From the IMG/VR virus record IMGVR_UViG_3300044612_002388, positions 1 to 33,525 of that record: 33,525 nt of DNA; one strand, 5' to 3'. Origin of the DNA: a virus. Of this stretch, positions 1 through 33,525 are shown piece by piece (the stretch's first letter is position 1; each line of letters starts with the position of its first letter). Both the position numbers and the translations under genes were made by a program. Below the pieces are notes generated by a model that did no database searches, was not told the DNA's origin, and saw only the letters and a program-made list of their open reading frames with translations.

Positions 1-127
1 TCTCCCATTGTCACCCCTCGCAGGTGTGGTGCGGCGGTCTGCCGCTTGTTGTGCGGCGTACCTACCGCTGAAAGCTCTGCAACGAAGAAATCCCACGGCG
101 TGCCCGTTTCATCCACCCATGGCTCAC
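1..127. repeat. 127-bp direct terminal repeat, left copy
   Basis: These bases are identical to the last 127 bases of the window. An exact overlap at both ends is what a de Bruijn assembler leaves when a circular or circularly permuted molecule is linearised. An odd length of 127 matches a common maximum k-mer, so this is more likely an assembly overlap than a biological terminal repeat. It lies inside the protease/scaffold gene, whose frame is uninterrupted when the two copies are merged. The unit genome is then 33,398 bp. Confidence 0.97.
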
Positions 128-3502: not shown

Positions 3503-4719
3503 ATTCTCACCTTGCGCTGTGCACCACCAGGGCCCGACACAATGCGGTCAGGGCTAGGGGCGTGCGGGTATATCTGCAGCTCTGTTATCGCCCACACTAG
3601 GGCGTCCATACGGTCGGGGCTCTCTGCGTCACTCGGCTCCCATGTGGTCATCTGGCGTTCGAGGTCGCGCAGCATGCCTACATGATGCACCCACCCGCTC
3701 GTGTAAAGCGTAGAGATCGGCGCCGCCCGCTCGTGTTTCGAGCTGCCCGCCCGCACACCTCGAAACGGCACAGCAGGGTCCACCATGCGCAGGTTGGTCT
3801 CCACGAGGTCGCCGCCGGCATTGGTCTCGCACACTGCCAGCGCACCGTACCGCTTGCACAGGTCACACACCACCTTCGCCCACTGGTGCGGCGCATAGAT
3901 GCCTGACAGGTCCTGCAGCACGTACGCGTGCCCATCGCTGCCCTGACCCACCAGCACGATGCCTGTCTTGTCGCTCCTGCGCTTCGCCGTTGTCGCAGGG
4001 TCCACGCCCACCACGTAACGCGTCAGCGAGCCTGCCGACTCCCTGCGGGTGCCGTTGATGGTCTCTTGGTCCCAGAGCACGCCGCCCGATTCGACCCACT
4101 CCGCGTCGATCTCTCGCCGCGCTTCCCGGTCGGTCATCGTGCTGCGCATCAGGTCGAGGTACTGCTGCGACAGGTACGGGTTGTCGCTGCTCTTCGCGTG
4201 GTGCCATGGGTACGCCTGACCCTGCACGAATATCTCATGAGCCGCCGACCCCTTCACTGGCGATGAGGTCCACCAGATGCGCTCGCACCCATACCGCACC
4301 CGAGCCATGATGGTCGTGAGCGCATACCTCGAATGGTAGCACGCCTCATCGAGCCACAGCCACCCCGCGTTGATTGACCGGAAGTCATCGGGGCGGGTCG
4401 AGCTGCGTAAGAGTATCTCGGCACCCGTCACCAGGCGGAGCCTCATCTCGCTGCGATTCACGTCCGCCAGCATGGGCCGGAAGTGCTCAAGCGCAGTGCC
4501 CAGCACACCGTCATGCAGCTGCCTGTACGTCGGTGCCACGATGACACCCAGACCATCGGACGGCTGCATCTGCACCGCTCGAACCCAGCCAGCCAGAGTC
4601 TTACCGCTGCCGAGACCACCCACAAAGCCCACGATGGGCCGCTGGTCCTCCACAAAGGCCGCCTGCGCCTCATGCGGCTCCCAGTCGATGATGTACTCAG
4701 GACCTGCCGCCGCATTCAT
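3499..4719 (-). CDS. terL: Terminase large subunit
   Basis: This 406-residue packaging motor has an N-terminal ATPase: Walker A 'GGLGSGKT' (34-41), Walker B 'WLWLDEA' (120-126) and a coupling 'WTSSPVKG' motif (150-156). The C-terminal RNase H-like nuclease starts at 'YVVGVDPATT' (Asp240). A later acidic pair is in 'ESPDRMDALVWA' near residue 374. It cuts concatemeric or circular DNA and drives it into the prohead through the portal encoded next. ATGA overlaps join it to both neighbours. The domain layout is that of Terminase_6/Terminase_6C families. No truncation was seen, though 406 residues is on the short side. Confidence 0.96.
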   Translation of the reverse strand: MNAAAGPEYIIDWEPHEAQAAFVEDQRPIVGFVGGLGSGKTLAGWVRAVQMQPSDGLGVIVAPTYRQLHDGVLGTALEHFRPMLADVNRSEMRLRLVTGAEILLRSSTRPDDFRSINAGWLWLDEACYHSRYALTTIMARVRYGCERIWWTSSPVKGSAAHEIFVQGQAYPWHHAKSSDNPYLSQQYLDLMRSTMTDREARREIDAEWVESGGVLWDQETINGTRRESAGSLTRYVVGVDPATTAKRRSDKTGIVLVGQGSDGHAYVLQDLSGIYAPHQWAKVVCDLCKRYGALAVCETNAGGDLVETNLRMVDPAVPFRGVRAGSSKHERAAPISTLYTSGWVHHVGMLRDLERQMTTWEPSDAESPDRMDALVWAITELQIYPHAPSPDRIVSGPGGAQRKVRI

Positions 4720-10360: not shown

Positions 10361-10414
10361 GTTGACACCACTGGCGCTCGCATTAGAGTCTGGCGCGGGT
10401 GTGAAGTGAACGGA

Positions 10415-10461
10415 GAAGCCCCGGAAGTCTGTTTGGTCGCAGGTTTTCGGGGCTTCGACTT
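10415..10461 (+). terminator. Candidate intrinsic terminator after primase gene
   Basis: GAAGCCCCG (10415-10423) pairs perfectly with CGGGGCTTC (10448-10456), followed by GACTTTTTG. The loop is long (24 nt), so formation may be slower than usual. It lies about 55 bp after the primase stop, in a 207-bp gap. A second T-run (TTTTTG) occurs near 10481 after GAGGGCCTC. Confidence 0.6.
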
Positions 10462-10523
10462 TTTGCGTTTGAGGGCCTCTTTTTGTTTGCACTAGGTGGC
10501 AATCTGTGCAAGGGTGCTTTTCA

Positions 10524-10550
10524 CGGTGCTTGACCACCGGACACACACCC
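10524..10550 (+). promoter_or_regulatory. Leader hairpin with TGAC loop and CACACCC motif
   Basis: CGGTG/CACCG encloses loop CTTGAC (10524-10539), followed directly by ACACACACCC (CACACCC at 10544-10550). The ATG at 10568 is preceded by GAGAG and TTCGACC. This is the second instance of the shared leader arrangement. Confidence 0.42.
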
Positions 10551-10567
10551 CCGCCGAGAGTTCGACC

Positions 10568-10795
10568 ATGACCATGACCCATTCAGAGATTGTCGCTGCC
10601 TGCTTCGCTGCTGTGAACGACCGAGACCCGCGCATCGTGGCTGCGCTCGATATGATCGAGTCTGTTTCTGATGCCATCGACCGCGCAGCGAACGATGCCG
10701 AGCGCCTGCAGCTCGCCTTCGGTGCACTCGACAGCGTGCAGTTTATCCTGTCTCGCCCCTCACCGAGCACCGTGTCGCAACCGGCCCCCGTTTAA
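10568..10795 (+). CDS. Small acidic protein of unknown function
   Basis: This 75-residue protein is not recognised. The sequence is largely helical and acidic ('EIVAACFAAVNDRDPRIVAA', 'SDAIDRAANDAERLQLAFGAL') and ends in a Pro/Ser-rich tail. The start at 10568 (MTMTHSE) is preferred to upstream alternatives because GAGAG and the GACC-ATG leader precede it. It is a free-standing gene between a terminator-like hairpin and a structured non-coding stretch, so it may be transcribed separately. The stop codon lies inside a palindrome. Confidence 0.65.
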   Translation: MTMTHSEIVAACFAAVNDRDPRIVAALDMIESVSDAIDRAANDAERLQLAFGALDSVQFILSRPSPSTVSQPAPV

Positions 10796-10810
10796 GCTGG
10801 CCCAGCTTAA
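10792..10810. repeat. 19-bp palindrome at gene end
   Basis: TTAAGCTGG - C - CCAGCTTAA is a perfect inverted repeat with a one-base centre. It overlaps the stop of the small gene ending at 10795. As DNA it suits a dimer-binding operator; as RNA it can form an 8-bp hairpin with a 3-nt loop. There is no T-run after it, so it is not a classical terminator. Confidence 0.7.
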
Positions 10811-10952
10811 GCCAGTGCAGGGCGATAAGTGAGCCCTGACACCTGCGATACAACGCGTGATGGTCTTCGCCCGGGTTCGACTCCCGGGGCGCGCTTGCCC
10901 ATGAAGGGCACTACACCGACCCGCAAGGGCAACATTCACATGTGAGGCACTC
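10811..10952 (+). ncRNA. Structured non-coding stretch (three successive stem-loops)
   Basis: There is no coding ORF here. Stem-loops follow one another: CAGGGC/GCCCTG with a 9-nt loop (10818-10838), the tRNA-T-arm-like element at 10855-10894, and TGCCC/GGGCA with a 5-nt loop (10896-10910). Together with the palindrome at 10792-10810 this is the densest run of RNA structure in the genome. It precedes the gene at 10953. It could be a small RNA or a structured leader. No known Rfam family is recognised. Confidence 0.45.
10855..10894 (+). ncRNA. tRNA T-arm/acceptor-like RNA element, copy 1
   Basis: The architecture is an outer stem GCGTG/CGCGC (5 bp, one G-U), a 10-nt 5' bulge, an inner stem CCCGGG/CCCGGG (6 bp), a 7-nt loop TTCGACT, and one unpaired G on the 3' side. 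The loop has the TTCGA of a T-loop. The following bases lie where an acceptor 3' strand would be, but no D or anticodon arm is present. The element at 13724-13763 has exactly the same segment lengths and shares GGGT(T/G)CGACTCCC. Function unknown. Confidence 0.5.
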
Positions 10953-11417
10953 ATGCGCGAGATAGATTACCGCCGTAAGGTTGAGCAGGCATTCATAAAA
11001 GCGTTTTCGGATTTCAAGCGTGCTCATGCTCGTGGAGACATCTTTGATTTTGATGCCTGCGGAGCTTCAGCCTGTGTTCGCGTCGATTGCTGCCACGGTG
11101 AGATGCGCCTCACTCTGAATGATCCGCAGTTCAACGGGTTGTATGGCTGCAAGGCAACGACACAACCTCGTAAGACAGGGAGGATTGAACTCTCATTCAC
11201 GCCCGAAGAGTTCGATTTGATGTTGCCTTACTTCGTGGAGGTGACCCGCGCTGTGCTGATGCAGGATGCAAGCCTGCTGCCTGCGCCTCCTACTGCGATG
11301 AGTCATGTAGGCTATCGCGTACCTGTCACCACGCCCTCGTATTGGGCCACCCGTATTCATGACCACATTTATGAGCACACTGAGGCCGCTTGGGAGAATA
11401 ACATCGCACGGCCATGA
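10953..11417 (+). CDS. Conserved-looking hypothetical protein
   Basis: This 154-residue protein is not recognised. It begins with a basic helix ('MREIDYRRKVEQAFIKAFSDFKRAHARGD'), followed by a Cys-containing beta region ('CGASACVRVDCCHGEMRLTL') and an acidic segment ('FTPEEFDLMLPYFVEVTRAVL'). The clustered Cys residues may bind metal. It sits alone between two non-coding gaps in the replication block, upstream of the RecE/RecT pair. The ATG at 10953 has GTGAGG a few bases upstream. Confidence 0.7.
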   Translation: MREIDYRRKVEQAFIKAFSDFKRAHARGDIFDFDACGASACVRVDCCHGEMRLTLNDPQFNGLYGCKATTQPRKTGRIELSFTPEEFDLMLPYFVEVTRAVLMQDASLLPAPPTAMSHVGYRVPVTTPSYWATRIHDHIYEHTEAAWENNIARP

Positions 11418-11424
11418 CCCGCTG

Positions 11425-11472
11425 TGTTTTCGTTGACCAGCGAAAACAATACACGCCGCAAGGCACACACCC
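11425..11472 (+). promoter_or_regulatory. Leader hairpin with TTGACCAG loop and CACACCC motif
   Basis: TGTTTTCG (11425-11432) pairs perfectly with CGAAAACA (11441-11448) around loop TTGACCAG. CACACCC follows at 11466-11472 and the ATG at 11491 is preceded by ACGACC. This is the third and most stable example of the shared leader. It controls or marks the start of the recombination operon (11491-13717). Confidence 0.5.
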
Positions 11473-11490
11473 CCATGTGAGACCACGACC

Positions 11491-12351
11491 ATGACCCACG
11501 ACAATTATCACGACCGCCCCGAAGTCAGCGCGACTGACCTGCGCCGCGCTGCCGAGCGCGGTGGCTGGTACGCCATCTGGTGCCGCCACAACCCTCGCAA
11601 GTCTGCCGCAATGGACGTTGGCACCCGCATTCACGCCGCAATGCTCGAGCACCGAACCATTGACCCGTCACGCTATGTGCCGCGCCCCGATGGCATGAGC
11701 TTTGCGACCAAAGAGGGCAAGGCATGGAAAGCCGAGCAGGAAGCTGCAGGCCTGACCGTTGTGGACGCCAACGAGTTTGCGTTCTATTCGAGCGCCGCTG
11801 GCGTCCTGACCGACTGGCGCAACCTGCTGGCATCAGTGCCTGGTGTGTGGCGATTCGAGCAGCCTATCGCGTGGATCGACCCAGACACGGCCACGCCGTG
11901 CCGGTGTAAGCCTGACGCAGTGTGTTTCGACGGCACCACGGTTAGCCTGTGGAGCGTCAAGACGACTGCCAAGCCGGTGACCCCGGCGTCATGGCGTGCT
12001 CAAGTCGAGAGCCGTTTCAGCCGCGAGGCTGATGGTAGCATGACCGTGTTTCCGGGTTACGACCTCGGCGAACGCCACTATGCCGAAGGGCTGGCCGCAT
12101 CGTATTTAGGAGATGCAGCCCGATGGCGCGAGGTGCGCGTGTGCCACGTTATTGTGCCCACAGAGGGCCCTCTGGCGCTCTACGTGGCACCTGTGCCCCC
12201 TGCGCTGCTCGAGCGCATCGGAGAAGCCCGCAGCGAGCTGCTGCACGAAGTGCACGCTTCGCTGCACACGTACCCTGAGTGTGTGCCGTCTGGCGTGATG
12301 TCGCTGACGTACGAGCCCTCTGTTTGGGCACAGCGAGGAGGTGAGGCATGA
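11491..12351 (+). CDS. RecE-like exonuclease (DUF3799, PDDEXK fold)
   Basis: This 286-residue protein resembles the C-terminal nuclease of RecE (exonuclease VIII) and DUF3799 phage proteins. It has an early 'VSATDLRRA' helix, 'GTRIHAAMLE' (His48), 'FEQPIAWID', 'CRCKPDAVCFDG' (Asp142) and a 'SVKTTAKP' strand (Lys157). It has a distal 'YAEGLAAS' helix in place of the usual 'Yx6Y/Q'. It would resect dsDNA ends to 3' ssDNA for the annealase encoded next (ATGA overlap). Oddity: the acidic residue of the (D/E)xK motif, usually D-x-K, appears as Ser155, so activity may use another acid or be reduced. It is the first gene of a three-gene recombination operon. Confidence 0.85.
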   Translation: MTHDNYHDRPEVSATDLRRAAERGGWYAIWCRHNPRKSAAMDVGTRIHAAMLEHRTIDPSRYVPRPDGMSFATKEGKAWKAEQEAAGLTVVDANEFAFYSSAAGVLTDWRNLLASVPGVWRFEQPIAWIDPDTATPCRCKPDAVCFDGTTVSLWSVKTTAKPVTPASWRAQVESRFSREADGSMTVFPGYDLGERHYAEGLAASYLGDAARWREVRVCHVIVPTEGPLALYVAPVPPALLERIGEARSELLHEVHASLHTYPECVPSGVMSLTYEPSVWAQRGGEA

Positions 12352-13118
12352 CCACCGCACTGACACCCATTGCTGCGCTCATCGAAAAGCGCCGCGATAC
12401 CCTGACCGCCCTGCTGCCTGACCGCAGCCAGCAGGACCGATTCATGGCTGCCCTGATGACCTACGTGGGACCAGAGCGCAGCCTGCACGCCCCTGCCTTG
12501 CAAGAGTCGCTGGTCATCGCCCTGTATCAGGTCGCCAAGCTCGGCCTTGACCCGGGCGTTGACTGCTACCTGATTCCTCGCTCTGGCAAGGTGCGCTGTG
12601 AGCTGGGCTACAAGGGCGCTGTGAAGGTCATGCTGCGCACGCCCGGCGCCAGCCATGTCCACACCTACCTGATCCACGAGAACGAGCACTATGTGATGAG
12701 CAAGGGCAGGGTCGTGGAGCACAGGGCTATTCTGGGCCCTGCCCGTGGTGCCTTGGTCGCAGCGGTCGCAGAGCTGCACATGCGCGATGGCTCGGTTATC
12801 GAGCGCATCGTGGACCAGAGCGAGATCGAGGCAGCCGCAGCCAAGGGCCAAGCGGCATGGAAAACGAACGCCAGCGAAATGTGGCGCAAGACTGCTCTGC
12901 TGCGATTGGCCAAGATTGTGCCCCTCGACAGCCAGACCGCAGGGGCCCTCGACGACATTGAGCGTGGCACGTACGACGTGACCCCGATGGAGACCACCCA
13001 GACCCCAGCCCGGCGCTTTGCGCCATCGCAGCCAACACGCATGACCTTACCAGCGGCACCCGCCGCAATCGCAACCGCACCCGCCGAAACCGAAGAGGCA
13101 GACCCATGGCACGAGTGA
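12348..13118 (+). CDS. recT: RecT-family single-strand annealing protein
   Basis: This 256-residue annealase pairs complementary ssDNA during phage recombination and replication. Family signatures are clear: 'LHAPALQESLVIALYQVAKLGLDPG' (split over about residues 40-66), 'CYLIPRSGKVRCELGYKGAVKVMLRT' and 'HENEHYVMSKGRV'. It also has 'AAWKTNASEMWRKTALLRLAKIVPL'. The C-terminal 45 residues are Pro/Ala-rich and low in complexity. It overlaps both the exonuclease gene and the next gene, as in the RecE-RecT-SSB arrangement of many siphophages. Confidence 0.95.
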   Translation: MTTALTPIAALIEKRRDTLTALLPDRSQQDRFMAALMTYVGPERSLHAPALQESLVIALYQVAKLGLDPGVDCYLIPRSGKVRCELGYKGAVKVMLRTPGASHVHTYLIHENEHYVMSKGRVVEHRAILGPARGALVAAVAELHMRDGSVIERIVDQSEIEAAAAKGQAAWKTNASEMWRKTALLRLAKIVPLDSQTAGALDDIERGTYDVTPMETTQTPARRFAPSQPTRMTLPAAPAAIATAPAETEEADPWHE

Positions 13119-13717
13119 CCTACAACAGCCCCGCCAGCACTTTCGAGAACGACCGCCCCGCCCTGTGGCCTGCCGGTGACTACATCGTGTGTGTGGTCGA
13201 TGCCCGCATCGACAGCACCCGCAATGGGAAGATGTACCTTGAGCTCGATCTCATGAATGCCGAAGGCGACCGCATGACCGACCGCGTCTATGGGTGGGAG
13301 GACACCACGGGGCGCGGTGCCTGGGTGGAGCGTGTGGTGCGTCGTATCGCAGAGCAGTGTCACGACCAGTTCTCTCCCGTGCCAGACGCGCCTGTGCAGC
13401 CGCACCAGAACTATGACTGGGAGGTGCAGGCCGATGTGGCAGCGGTCTCGCTGGGCGGCATCATGCACGTGACGGTGCAGGTGGAGCAGGGCAGCGCAAA
13501 GCCTACCGGTGGCCATTACCCAGACCGCAACAAGGCGAACTGGAACTTTGCCGCCGGTGCCACGCCTGACGAGATTGCCACGTTCCGCAAGTCGAAGGGT
13601 TGGACCTCGGCTGCACCGCGTTTGAAGGCGAGCAAGGCAGCCGCTCTGCAGCTCTGGCAGCACGGTGTGATGGTGGCCTTAGGTCAGGCCCCCGAAGGCA
13701 GCGACATCGACTTTTGA
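13106..13717 (+). CDS. DUF669-like single-stranded DNA-binding protein
   Basis: This 203-residue protein begins 'YNSPASTFENDRPALWPAGDYIVCVVDA', typical of DUF669 phage ssDNA-binding proteins, and continues as an OB-fold-like beta-rich region ('MYLELDLMNAEGDRMTDRVYGWED'). A C-terminal Asp/Ile/Phe end ('GSDIDF') is the acidic tip typical of SSBs that recruit partner proteins. It overlaps recT by 13 bp and would coat the ssDNA made by the nuclease. Assignment is by motif and by operon position. Confidence 0.78.
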   Translation: MARVTYNSPASTFENDRPALWPAGDYIVCVVDARIDSTRNGKMYLELDLMNAEGDRMTDRVYGWEDTTGRGAWVERVVRRIAEQCHDQFSPVPDAPVQPHQNYDWEVQADVAAVSLGGIMHVTVQVEQGSAKPTGGHYPDRNKANWNFAAGATPDEIATFRKSKGWTSAAPRLKASKAAALQLWQHGVMVALGQAPEGSDIDF

Positions 13718-13723
13718 GCCCTA

Positions 13724-13763
13724 GCCTGTGACAGCGTAGCAGGGTGCGACTCCCTGCGCAGGC
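13724..13763 (+). ncRNA. tRNA T-arm/acceptor-like RNA element, copy 2
   Basis: The segment lengths are the same as in the 10855 element: 5-bp outer stem GCCTG/CAGGC, 10-nt 5' bulge, 6-bp inner stem GCAGGG/CCCTGC, 7-nt loop TGCGACT, one 3' G. It can also be drawn as a tRNA minihelix. GCCTGTG (13724-13730) then pairs with CGCAGGC (13757-13763) as a 7-bp acceptor, and CAGGG/CCCTG as a 5-bp T-stem. A 9-nt linker replaces the D and anticodon arms. It lies in the 70-bp gap before the MazG gene. Stem sequences differ from copy 1 while pairing is kept. Confidence 0.55.
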
Positions 13764-13787
13764 CTGACCATTCCACGAGAGAGAGCC

Positions 13788-14126
13788 ATGACACGAGTGA
13801 TAGAGTTAGATGAGTACCAGCAGGCTGCGCTGCGCACGGCAGGCAACCCAGCCGCGCAGGGCTGGCTTTTTGAGAAGCTGCTCGGCCTGCCCGAAGAGGT
13901 GGGCGAGGTGCTGGGGAGCATTAAGAAGGCTGAGTTCCACGGGCACACGACCAGTTCGGAGAGCATTAAGAAGGAGCTGGGTGACGTGCTCTGGTACGTG
14001 GCGTGTATCGCCCATTGGTATGGCTATACCCTCTCAGACGTGGCCACCGAGAACATCGAGAAGCTGCGCCGGCGGTATCCTGACGGGTTCAGCGTGCAGC
14101 GGTCTGTGAATCGGGGGGACGAATGA
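13788..14126 (+). CDS. MazG-like nucleotide pyrophosphohydrolase
   Basis: This 112-residue, single-domain all-alpha NTP pyrophosphatase has 'GLPEEVGEVLGSIKKAEFHG' with the acidic helix (Glu36/37/40) and 'KKELGDVLWYVACIA' (Glu63, Asp66), which bind magnesium and nucleotide. Then comes 'LSDVATENIEKLRRRYPDGF'. The family hydrolyses (d)NTPs or, in phages, is proposed to lower alarmone (ppGpp) or adjust nucleotide pools. It follows the tRNA-like RNA element and a GAGAGAG ribosome-binding stretch and overlaps the next gene by ATGA. The substrate cannot be told from sequence. Confidence 0.92.
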   Translation: MTRVIELDEYQQAALRTAGNPAAQGWLFEKLLGLPEEVGEVLGSIKKAEFHGHTTSSESIKKELGDVLWYVACIAHWYGYTLSDVATENIEKLRRRYPDGFSVQRSVNRGDE

Positions 14127-14443
14127 CCAGCCAGCTGCAACAATGGGTCATCCTCGAATGGATGCGAGCCCGTAGCCCTTCGGGCAAGGCCAACCGTAAG
14201 AGAGTCAAGATAGAGGACGCTACAGTGTACCTGTGCCGCACCCCTGATGCGACCGATACGATGGCGCTGCGTATCGAGGCCAACGGGGCGTGGGCGCTGC
14301 ACACCAGCCGCTGCGTCATATGGGACGACGGCACCCACCGCGCCATCGGTGACCGGCACATCGAGCGAGACCGGCTGTGCAGCGATGCCATTGAGGCATT
14401 GACCTGCTATTACGACGCCAGCGAAATGCAGGGGCTGCCATGA
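14123..14443 (+). CDS. Hypothetical protein
   Basis: This 106-residue protein is not recognised. It has a basic N-terminus ('RARSPSGKANRKRVKIEDATVYLC') followed by beta-like segments ('TMALRIEANGAWALHTSRCVIW') and an acidic helix ('RDRLCSDAIEALTCYYDASEM'). It is coupled by ATGA overlaps to the MazG gene before and the resolvase gene after, so it belongs to the nucleic-acid metabolism operon. Confidence 0.78.
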   Translation: MTSQLQQWVILEWMRARSPSGKANRKRVKIEDATVYLCRTPDATDTMALRIEANGAWALHTSRCVIWDDGTHRAIGDRHIERDRLCSDAIEALTCYYDASEMQGLP

Positions 14444-32762: not shown

Positions 32763-33406
32763 GCGGCACCTCCAGTCGGGCTAAGGGTCAGGCGACCGCG
32801 AATATCGCGCCATTCCTTGTGATACGATGCGGCATCGAACTTGCCAGCCACCGTGTGACGCTGGCGAAGCTGGGCCACGCCTTCGGCAGTGAAGAGGCGC
32901 TGCTCGTCGCTCATGGCAACGCCAGACGCTGCAGTGCGTGCCGAGCCACCCAAGCGACGGGGTGCAAGCTCCAGAAGGCCCTTGAACGTCACAGGGTCGT
33001 TCATGCGAATCTGCAACAGCTTTTCGCGAGTCATGCCGCGAAAGTCACGCTCACCGATAAGAGCGTCCACCTCTGCGATGACTGCACGCTGCTCAAGCTG
33101 CGCCAGACGGCGAGCCATGTCACCCATCTGCACAGGTGCCGATGGCACCACAGGCGCAGGCGCTGCGATGGGTGCAGCCAGGGAAGCATCTTCCATCTTG
33201 GTGTTGCCCATGGTCGCAGCGGGGGCCATGCCGTCCACGCGTGCCTTGAGGTCCATCAGCTGCGCCATCAGCGCAGCAGCCCATGCCGGGGCGTCCTCGG
33301 TCGCCACAGCATCTTCCATCAGGGTTGCCCCTTCCGGCAGTGATTCCTCGGTCTCGATCTCAATGACCGTACCGTCGGCCATTTTGGCCTTCTTTACGTC
33401 TCCCAT
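32759..33406 (-). CDS. Nested scaffold protein (internal start in protease gene)
   Basis: This ORF shares the stop and frame of the protease gene. An internal ATG at 33406 is preceded by GAGGGG with five-base spacing, a better ribosome site than that of the full gene. It would give a 215-residue scaffold: 'MGDVKKAKMADGTVIEIETEES', an acidic and Ala/Pro-rich linker, and helical or coiled-coil segments ('ARRLAQLEQRAVIAEVDALIGERDF'). In phage lambda (C/Nu3) and Mu (I/Z) the scaffold is made the same way, from inside the protease gene. The protease would then cut it on maturation. No protein evidence exists here. Confidence 0.72.
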   Translation of the reverse strand: MGDVKKAKMADGTVIEIETEESLPEGATLMEDAVATEDAPAWAAALMAQLMDLKARVDGMAPAATMGNTKMEDASLAAPIAAPAPVVPSAPVQMGDMARRLAQLEQRAVIAEVDALIGERDFRGMTREKLLQIRMNDPVTFKGLLELAPRRLGGSARTAASGVAMSDEQRLFTAEGVAQLRQRHTVAGKFDAASYHKEWRDIRGRLTLSPTGGAA

Positions 33407-33525
33407 TGTCACCCCTCGCAGGTGTGGTGCGGCGGTCTGCCGCTTGTTGTGCGGCGTACCTACCGCTGAAAGCTCTGCAACGAAGAAATCCCACGGCGTG
33501 CCCGTTTCATCCACCCATGGCTCAC
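32759..33525 (-). CDS. Prohead protease with nested scaffold, C-terminal part
   Basis: This is the rest of the gene begun at 512 in the left end of the window; bases 33399-33525 duplicate 1-127. It encodes the last third of the protease domain ('WDFFVAELSAVGTPHNKRQ') and the whole scaffold. The joined gene is 383 residues from ATG 512. The C-terminal region (from about residue 169) is acidic then Ala/Met/Pro-rich with helices. It overlaps the decoration gene by ATGA. Confidence 0.82.
   Translation of the reverse strand, partial: EPWVDETGTPWDFFVAELSAVGTPHNKRQTAAPHLRGVTMGDVKKAKMADGTVIEIETEESLPEGATLMEDAVATEDAPAWAAALMAQLMDLKARVDGMAPAATMGNTKMEDASLAAPIAAPAPVVPSAPVQMGDMARRLAQLEQRAVIAEVDALIGERDFRGMTREKLLQIRMNDPVTFKGLLELAPRRLGGSARTAASGVAMSDEQRLFTAEGVAQLRQRHTVAGKFDAASYHKEWRDIRGRLTLSPTGGAA
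33399..33525. repeat. 127-bp direct terminal repeat, right copy
   Basis: Identical to bases 1-127 (see left copy). Merging the copies gives a continuous coding sequence through the join. This supports a closed or permuted genome map rather than a truncated contig. Confidence 0.97.

Follow-up and report, generated by a model that had tools for sequence, protein, structure and literature searches.

In mitochondrial transcripts, tRNA structures lie between the genes of a polycistronic RNA and serve as punctuation. RNase P also has substrates other than tRNA among phage and bacterial RNAs, mRNAs included: phage M3 RNA, C4 RNA, T4 gene 32 mRNA, and his operon mRNA are examples, some of them of phage origin or polycistronic; minimal RNase P substrates and external guide sequences show that a T-stem/acceptor-like helix suffices for recognition (PMC11143913). 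The mascRNA, which resembles a tRNA, has likewise been connected with processing by RNase P (PMC12016569). Like the genome described here, those of haloviruses and cyanophages can contain truncated tRNA sequences, which there form attP sites: the attP of halovirus HF2 is tRNA-like (PMC8707807), and T7-like cyanophages have tRNA-Leu attP sites (PMC8776855). The primary transcripts of HF2 reach ~35 kb, whereas the species seen on Northern blots measure 0.5-9 kb; the authors suggest processing, and the gap was noted without a known signal (PMC8707807). Here we analyze two tRNA-like elements in a viral genome of 33,525 nucleotides (the window), which is circular and, as its 127-bp terminal repeat indicates, complete. 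We found no published description of such elements in the open-licence literature.

Anatomy and gene setting of the two elements

The first-pass annotation placed two RNA elements with the segment lengths 5-10-6-7-6-1-5 in gaps of the rightward gene block; their coordinates and segment lengths proved exact, and both do lie in such gaps (Table 1). Element 1 has an outer stem (GCGTG/CGCGC) and a T-arm (CCCGGG-TTCGACT-CCCGGG), and the GG at positions 3-4 of its insert ATGGTCTTCG is D-loop-like. Element 2 can be drawn, as had been suggested, in an alternative register with a perfect 7-bp acceptor (GCCTGTG/CGCAGGC, one G-U pair), the insert ACAGCGTAG, and a 5-bp T-stem (T-arm CAGGG-TGCGACT-CCCTG); only 0.025 complete minihelices of this type are expected per shuffled window. 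The acceptor of element 1 pairs at six of seven positions (an A6-G67 mismatch and two wobbles), and its T-stem likewise has 5 bp. No other hairpin in the window combines the T-arm consensus with a 6-bp Watson-Crick stem. Both elements have the TPsiCRANY-type T-arm loop and the acceptor stacking of canonical tRNAs, the element 2 loop TGCGACT being a variant that is also present in tRNA-like sequences of other viral contigs. Element 1 possesses every feature of the mini-tRNA class (outer stem, short insert with an early GG, T-arm, and location in a gap between co-directional genes); element 2 possesses all of them except the early GG, which is absent from its insert.

Table 1. Coordinates of the two elements and neighboring features in the window
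Feature	Position	Strand	Detail	Basis
Gene upstream of element 1, hypothetical	10568..10795	+	stop codon 10793-10795	
Hairpin upstream of element 1	10816..10841	+	GTGCAGGGC-loop-GCCCTGaCAC; pairing kept in L004	
Element 1, mini-tRNA	10855..10894	+	GCGTG-ATGGTCTTCG-CCCGGG-TTCGACT-CCCGGG-G-CGCGC	
Gene downstream of element 1, hypothetical	10953..11417	+		
Exonuclease VIII-like gene, between both elements	11491..12351	+	phrog_412	E 4e-20
RecT-like single-strand annealing protein gene	12348..13118	+	phrog_148	E 2e-34
Gene upstream of element 2, without family match	13106..13717	+	stop codon 13715-13717	
Element 2, mini-tRNA	13724..13763	+	GCCTG-TGACAGCGTA-GCAGGG-TGCGACT-CCCTGC-G-CAGGC	
MazG-like pyrophosphatase gene, downstream of element 2	13788..14126	+	phrog_229	E 1e-34

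The differences between the two stems had been taken for covariation between copies of one element. We do not follow this interpretation. The shared core is the general T-arm consensus of tRNAs, so the two elements are probably not duplicates of each other, and the apparent covariation is better read as reflecting two members of a wider class. A standard tRNA gene was also rejected: the cloverleaf with its D and anticodon arms is not present, inserts of 9-10 nt leaving no room for these arms, and ARAGORN reports no canonical tRNA gene in the window (its relaxed modes yield many conflicting chance folds). No Rfam 15 family reaches its gathering threshold in the window or in nine copy-bearing loci of other viruses. 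The nearest model, mascRNA-menRNA (RF01684), remains below its cut-off of 42.5 bits, scoring 20.7 and 19.6; its match to element 2 is full-length (20.7 bits, E 0.024). A fragment of the Tymovirus model matches the T-arm of element 2 with E 2.8.

Element 2 starts 7 nt, and element 1 60 nt, past a stop codon. The hairpin at 10816..10841 may belong to the same intergenic RNA as element 1. A search of the + strand of the operon from 10389 to 14200 gave no promoter-like site, nor was a terminator found at either element. In IMG/VR, a single near relative, L004, carries both elements; a further close relative there is a fragment that does not extend to the element region. Element 2 lies within a 53-nt run (13717-13769), and element 1 within a 33-nt run, of identity between the window and L004; the third codon positions of the neighboring genes are 47-78% identical. 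The upstream hairpin has a C-G to U-A change in L004 (CAGGGC/GCCCTG to CAGGGT/ACCCTG) that retains the pairing. Element 1 of L004 keeps the acceptor and T-arm strands, and its insert measures 26 instead of 10 nt and contains a hairpin of its own, CCCTG-CTGGTAA-CAGGG. The geometry is thus not fixed, as had been claimed, inserts ranging from 8 to at least 26 nt. Reading the hairpin as the anticodon arm of a tRNA-Thr(GGU)-like sequence was rejected: the short forms keep only the GG, which makes a D-loop-like role no less probable.

Folding energy does not set the bare elements apart (z-scores of -0.06 and -1.47), which, together with the palindromic arms, would suit chance hairpins or inverted repeats that act at the DNA level as binding sites or replication signals. 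However, the constant parts are a tRNA T-loop and a GG insert, for which a DNA palindrome has no need. Chance is also opposed by the covariance model R1, whose only matches with E < 0.01, in a scan covering 851 kb of mostly RecT-flanking viral and bacterial DNA, are those in the window and L004. We consider both explanations extremely improbable. The same search led us to reject a tie between the element and RecT operons. R1 scores element 1, one of its training members, at 41.9 bits; the covariance alignment was registered by hand, and longer inserts in it were trimmed or filled with N.

Recurrence in unrelated viruses

The first-pass annotation made its reading depend on homologous elements with compensatory changes. 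Scanning IMG/VR for one T-arm sequence, a selection in which outer pairing played no part, revealed many unrelated viral contigs with the same architecture: the outer stem usually measures 5-8 bp, the 5' insert is short and has a GG near its start, and the T-arm has 5-7 bp and a TTCGACT-type loop. Among the carriers are cyanophage Syn5 and the haloarchaeal viruses HRTV-27, HF2, HHTV-2, and SH1, the last a member of another viral realm. At 17 independent non-tRNA loci, picked by the T-arm only, outer pairing averages 5.3 bp compared to 3.3 +/- 0.27 bp after permutation, a value that none of 5000 permutations reaches; the outer stem is non-random. A GG occupies insert positions 2-4 in 11 of the 13 short inserts (3.4 expected; 0/20000). 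In HF2, HSTV-4, and Serpecor1 the element at the orthologous site differs by two compensatory double changes. Recurrence, non-random outer pairing, and these halovirus changes support the tRNA-minihelix reading and make the anatomy well supported; the original observation is confirmed, and its extent is larger than first supposed.

The copies listed have mostly 11-14 stacked pairs, in keeping with the T-stem/acceptor helix of ~12 bp by which RNase P substrates are recognized. All 16 annotated strong copies that were checked lie in gaps between co-directional genes, and three of the four full copies in HRTV-27 begin on the first nucleotide after a stop codon. The copies adjoin stop codons and ribosome-binding sites, which would also suit a minihelix that remains uncut and tunes the stability or translation of its neighbors, either by recruiting a tRNA-binding host protein (EF-Tu, a synthetase, the CCA-adding enzyme, or T-loop modification enzymes) or by shielding mRNA ends from exonucleases. 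This explanation is favored by the fact that the top half of tRNA is the part bound by EF-Tu, synthetases, and similar proteins. However, the copies have no acceptor sequence or discriminator in common, which argues against one synthetase, and their position right behind stop codons is what a cleavage site needs. We regard an uncut minihelix as rather unlikely.

The sole published 5' end that we found at any copy, T-4384 of HF2, falls 8 nt inside the element at 4376-4413, off the predicted RNase P site at 4375/4376, and was read in the publication as a promoter start. Given this primer-extension end and the IR-like motif CTAAAGACTTAGAA at 4343 upstream, the copies could be structures in the 5' leaders of downstream transcripts whose start sites coincide with or closely precede them. 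However, a transcript beginning at 4384 would omit the 5' outer strand, yet within the genus this strand and its pairing partner covary. In addition, the copies in the window, Syn5, and HRTV-27 are internal to gene runs, and the surroundings of those in the window yielded no promoter-like site. A 5'-leader role is, in our opinion, improbable.

The attP sites cited above, from HF2 and the T7-like cyanophages, and the extra arm-like hairpin in element 1 of L004 raise the further possibility that the copies are attP fragments or decaying tRNA genes without present function. Such attP sites, however, match a host tRNA gene and adjoin the integrase, those of cyanophages lying downstream of it, whereas the Syn5 copy is found in the scaffold-capsid gap. 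The complete window genome has no match to a tyrosine integrase or serine resolvase family, and an attP site of a temperate virus was rejected for this reason. Several differing copies per genome, compensatory changes, and strong conservation also argue against this possibility, which we consider very improbable.

Proposed punctuation of viral transcripts

We lean modestly towards tRNA-mimic punctuation as the best explanation, in which host RNase P, and perhaps RNase Z, would cut polycistronic viral mRNA at the elements; among the roles proposed initially, RNase P-type cleavage appears to fit the placement best. We infer that transcription passes through the element, which would thus be made within the polycistronic mRNA. 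Situated in an intergenic gap, the element corresponds to the upper half of a tRNA, its acceptor-like outer stem and its T-arm stacking into one helix (~11-14 bp in total). A short 5' insert takes the place of the D and anticodon arms, and the early GG of this insert probably docks into the T-loop in the manner of G18-G19 in tRNA. Host RNase P would recognize the stacked acceptor/T helix and cleave at the 5' foot of the helix, a position that frequently follows the upstream stop codon by a few nucleotides; where the host's tRNA genes lack an encoded CCA, RNase Z may cut the 3' foot. The operon would be punctuated and its expression affected, each segment obtaining its own ends and stability, as with tRNAs in mitochondrial transcripts.

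Punctuation is favored by the architecture, the T-loop consensus, the outer pairing, the GG, the compensatory changes, and the gap placement, and also by the window operon, with neither a promoter-like site in the region searched nor a terminator at the elements. The nearest Rfam model (mascRNA), the non-tRNA substrates of RNase P, and the HF2 transcript sizes point in the same direction. Bacterial RNase P prefers an encoded 3' CCA in many substrates, and the punctuation reading is weakened because no copy examined has one directly after the outer stem; the misplaced HF2 end, the missing early GG of element 2, and the ordinary folding energies weaken it as well. The broader proposal, that mini-tRNAs form a class common to bacterial and archaeal viruses of at least two realms, whose operons are punctuated for host RNase P/RNase Z into gene-sized messages, could in our judgment go either way. 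If true, it would explain in general terms how hosts with few known processing signals, including archaea and cyanobacteria, cut long polycistronic transcripts of viruses, and the tRNA elbow alone would be a regulatory part used repeatedly by unrelated viruses. Since a genetic system for Syn5 has already been published (PMC8776855), the idea is directly testable.

Comparison with known tRNA-like RNAs

The mascRNA-menRNA family resembles the window elements in having a tRNA-like acceptor and T-arm, without a proper D arm, inside a longer transcript. However, it is eukaryotic, keeps an anticodon-like arm, and sits 3'-terminally in a single long noncoding RNA, whereas the elements described here are viral, intergenic, and often present several times per operon. 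The known substrates of RNase P outside tRNA are single cases or engineered; here we find a recurring class with a conserved T-loop and GG insert. The tRNA-like structures at the 3' end of plant RNA viruses are likewise viral tRNA mimicry, but these end the genome and have a pseudoknotted acceptor, whereas the elements here are internal and form one stacked helix. Mitochondrial punctuation relies on working tRNAs with anticodons, and the short forms described here have no anticodon arm; if the proposed role is correct, they would represent its viral, tRNA-mimic counterpart.

Two elements in a replication and recombination block

Both elements described in the first-pass annotation are exactly present, with segment lengths 5-10-6-7-6-1-5 and the core GGGT(T/G)CGACTCCC, and both are intergenic in the rightward block, as it had stated. 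This block encodes a helicase, a DUF927 primase-helicase, two small genes, exonuclease VIII, RecT, an orphan gene, MazG and a RuvC-like resolvase. The exact terminal repeat indicates that the window represents a complete genome, circular and 33,398 bp long. It has no match to a tyrosine integrase or to a resolvase; no tRNA genes were found in the window, nor any Rfam match at threshold. A shuffled window is expected to contain 0.8 T-arm hairpins and 0.025 complete 7+5 minihelices; element 2 is one such minihelix, and element 1 forms six of the seven acceptor pairs. The folding free energies of the elements by themselves are ordinary, and the case for them therefore rests on comparison, not on folding.

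Positions of the elements and of neighboring or related features
Feature	Genome	Position	Observation
Terminal repeat	Window	1-127 and 33399-33525	127 bp, exact
Terminator-like hairpin	Window	10415-10456	3' of the primase gene, then a T-run; many compensatory changes, GAAGCCCCGGAAGTCTG/CAGGTTTTCGGGGCTTC vs GAAACCCCAAAACCCTG/CAGGGTTTTGGGGTTTC in L004
Near-perfect palindrome	Window	10791-10811	TTAAGCTGGcCCAGCTTAA, right at a stop codon; AGGCTGGcCCAGCCT in L004, i.e., paired changes
Hairpin upstream of element 1	Window	10816-10841	Also covaries between window and L004
Element 1	Window	10855-10894	+ strand
Element 2	Window	13724-13763	+ strand
Element	HF2 (NC_003345.2, in L213)	4376-4413	
T-arm	His2, Hardyhisp2 (loci L204, L210)	501-532 of each locus	Followed by CTACCTATTGC; outer stem only about 4 bp

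The near relative L004 (IMG/VR contig 3300011338_000801) carries both elements and is 83-88% identical to the window across aligned blocks. Element 2 lies inside an identical run of 53 nt and element 1 inside one of 33 nt; third positions of adjacent genes are 47-78% identical. The element 1 insert in L004 is 26 nt long and contains the hairpin CCCTG-CTGGTAA-CAGGG, so the insert changes at the position of a tRNA's D and anticodon arms, whereas the acceptor/T helix is conserved.

A wider class of mini-tRNA-like elements

The T-arm CCCGGGTTCGACTCCCGGG was used to scan IMG/VR, which gives a sample biased to one GC-rich T-arm sequence; of the 28 stretches returned, few are standard tRNAs. Most of the others have an outer stem that encloses the T-arm, with a short insert on the 5' side, as in L174 (TGCCCCG-CTGGTTTC-GCCCGGG-TTCGACT-CCCGGGC-CGGGGCA), L176 (GACGGCCG-AAGGTGTAC-CCCGGG-TTCGACT-CCCGGG-CGGCCGTC) and L158 (CTGCTAG-ATGGTCCTCGG-CCCGGG-TTCGACT-CCCGGG-CTAGCAG). 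Since the T-arm was the sole criterion for picking loci, outer pairing provides an independent test. The best outer stem averages 5.3 bp across 17 independent non-tRNA loci (two of them the copies of element 1 in the window and in L004), versus 3.3 +/- 0.27 with downstream flanks permuted (0/5000 reach 5.3). A GG starting at insert position 2-4, found in 11 of 13 short inserts versus 3.4 in shuffled inserts (0/20000), probably mimics the D-loop. In the alignment of copies (A6) pairing is 100% and both partners have changed in 8 of the 11 pairs, a descriptive tally only, as stems were registered by pairing, with inserts and linkers removed. The covariance model R1, run on 851 kb that came mostly from RecT-flanking loci in other viruses and bacteria, placed only the window and L004 copies below E 0.01. 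The class is widespread, yet uncommon and without a tie to RecT; its novelty was judged against Rfam 15 and open-licence literature only. Ten closely related AT-rich contigs of 28-32 kb (L005, L008, L016, L020, L026, L029, L031, L041, L046 and L060) have a common sequence with a TGCGACT T-arm, several with additional, degenerate tRNA-like hairpins close by.

In Halorubrum virus HRTV-27 a single gene run holds four full copies in its gaps; three of them start on the nucleotide directly after a stop codon. The stems in this virus are CCGCG/CGCGG, CCACG/CGTGG and GCGCG/CGCGT. The cyanophages Syn5 and S-TIP28 each have one copy that precedes the major capsid gene (in Syn5, in the scaffold/capsid gap), and an uncultured family (L159, L192 and others) has one immediately upstream of a capsid-like gene. 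Six T-arm copies occur in a contig (L184/L189) that weakly matches a Gordonia phage. BLAST with single elements as queries reached further copies in gaps of HF2, Serpecor1, HSTV-4, HHTV-2, SH1 and HCIV-1, and weaker cases in His2, Hardyhisp2 and Streptomyces phage JPandJE. Of the strong copies, the 16 with checked annotation are all in gaps that separate co-directional genes (HRTV-27, four; window, HF2 and Serpecor1, two each; HSTV-4, HHTV-2, SH1, HCIV-1, Syn5 and S-TIP28, one each). SH1 and HCIV-1 belong to Varidnaviria, the tailed viruses to Duplodnaviria and His2 to Monodnaviria; whether the His2 copy belongs to the class of elements is uncertain, since its T-arm has only about four outer pairs and no model match. 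The string after the T-arm in His2 and Hardyhisp2 is nearly the same as in the Syn5 element, though the archaeal virus is unrelated. In S-SRP01, S-CBP1 and S-CBP4 (L200, L202, L203), the gap that precedes the major capsid gene lacks the T-arm; short complementary arms there flank a different common sequence around CACCTCAGAGTCGGA, perhaps an alternative signal.

At the second HF2 site, with the register set by orthology and not by a pairing search, the outer stems GCTCCG/CGGAGC (HF2), GCCCCG/CGGGGC (HSTV-4) and GCTCTG/CAGAGC (Serpecor1) differ by two compensatory double changes; with three sequences, 76 of 500 shuffles do equally well, and this covariation is not statistically strong alone. 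Just 3' of the halovirus elements (L181, L213) is a second short hairpin (TGGTAGC-acga-GCTACCG in HF2), conserved with changes among relatives.

Possible cleavage by RNase P

Helix length, T-loop, missing anticodon and position after stop codons lead us to lean slightly towards the elements being sites at which the host's RNase P, perhaps together with RNase Z, would cut the viral transcript. Known substrates of RNase P extend beyond tRNAs and include phage RNAs and mRNAs (PMC11143913). RT-PCR detected HF2 transcripts of up to 35 kb, but Northern blots only species of 0.5-9 kb, a gap for which the authors proposed processing (PMC8707807). However, the sole published 5' end at a copy, the HF2 primer-extension end T-4384, counts against cleavage by RNase P because it falls within the element, 8 nt from its edge, and has been read as a promoter start; it may be either a true start or the product of processing. 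The Rfam model nearest to the elements is mascRNA, which has been linked to RNase P processing of its own transcript (PMC12016569).
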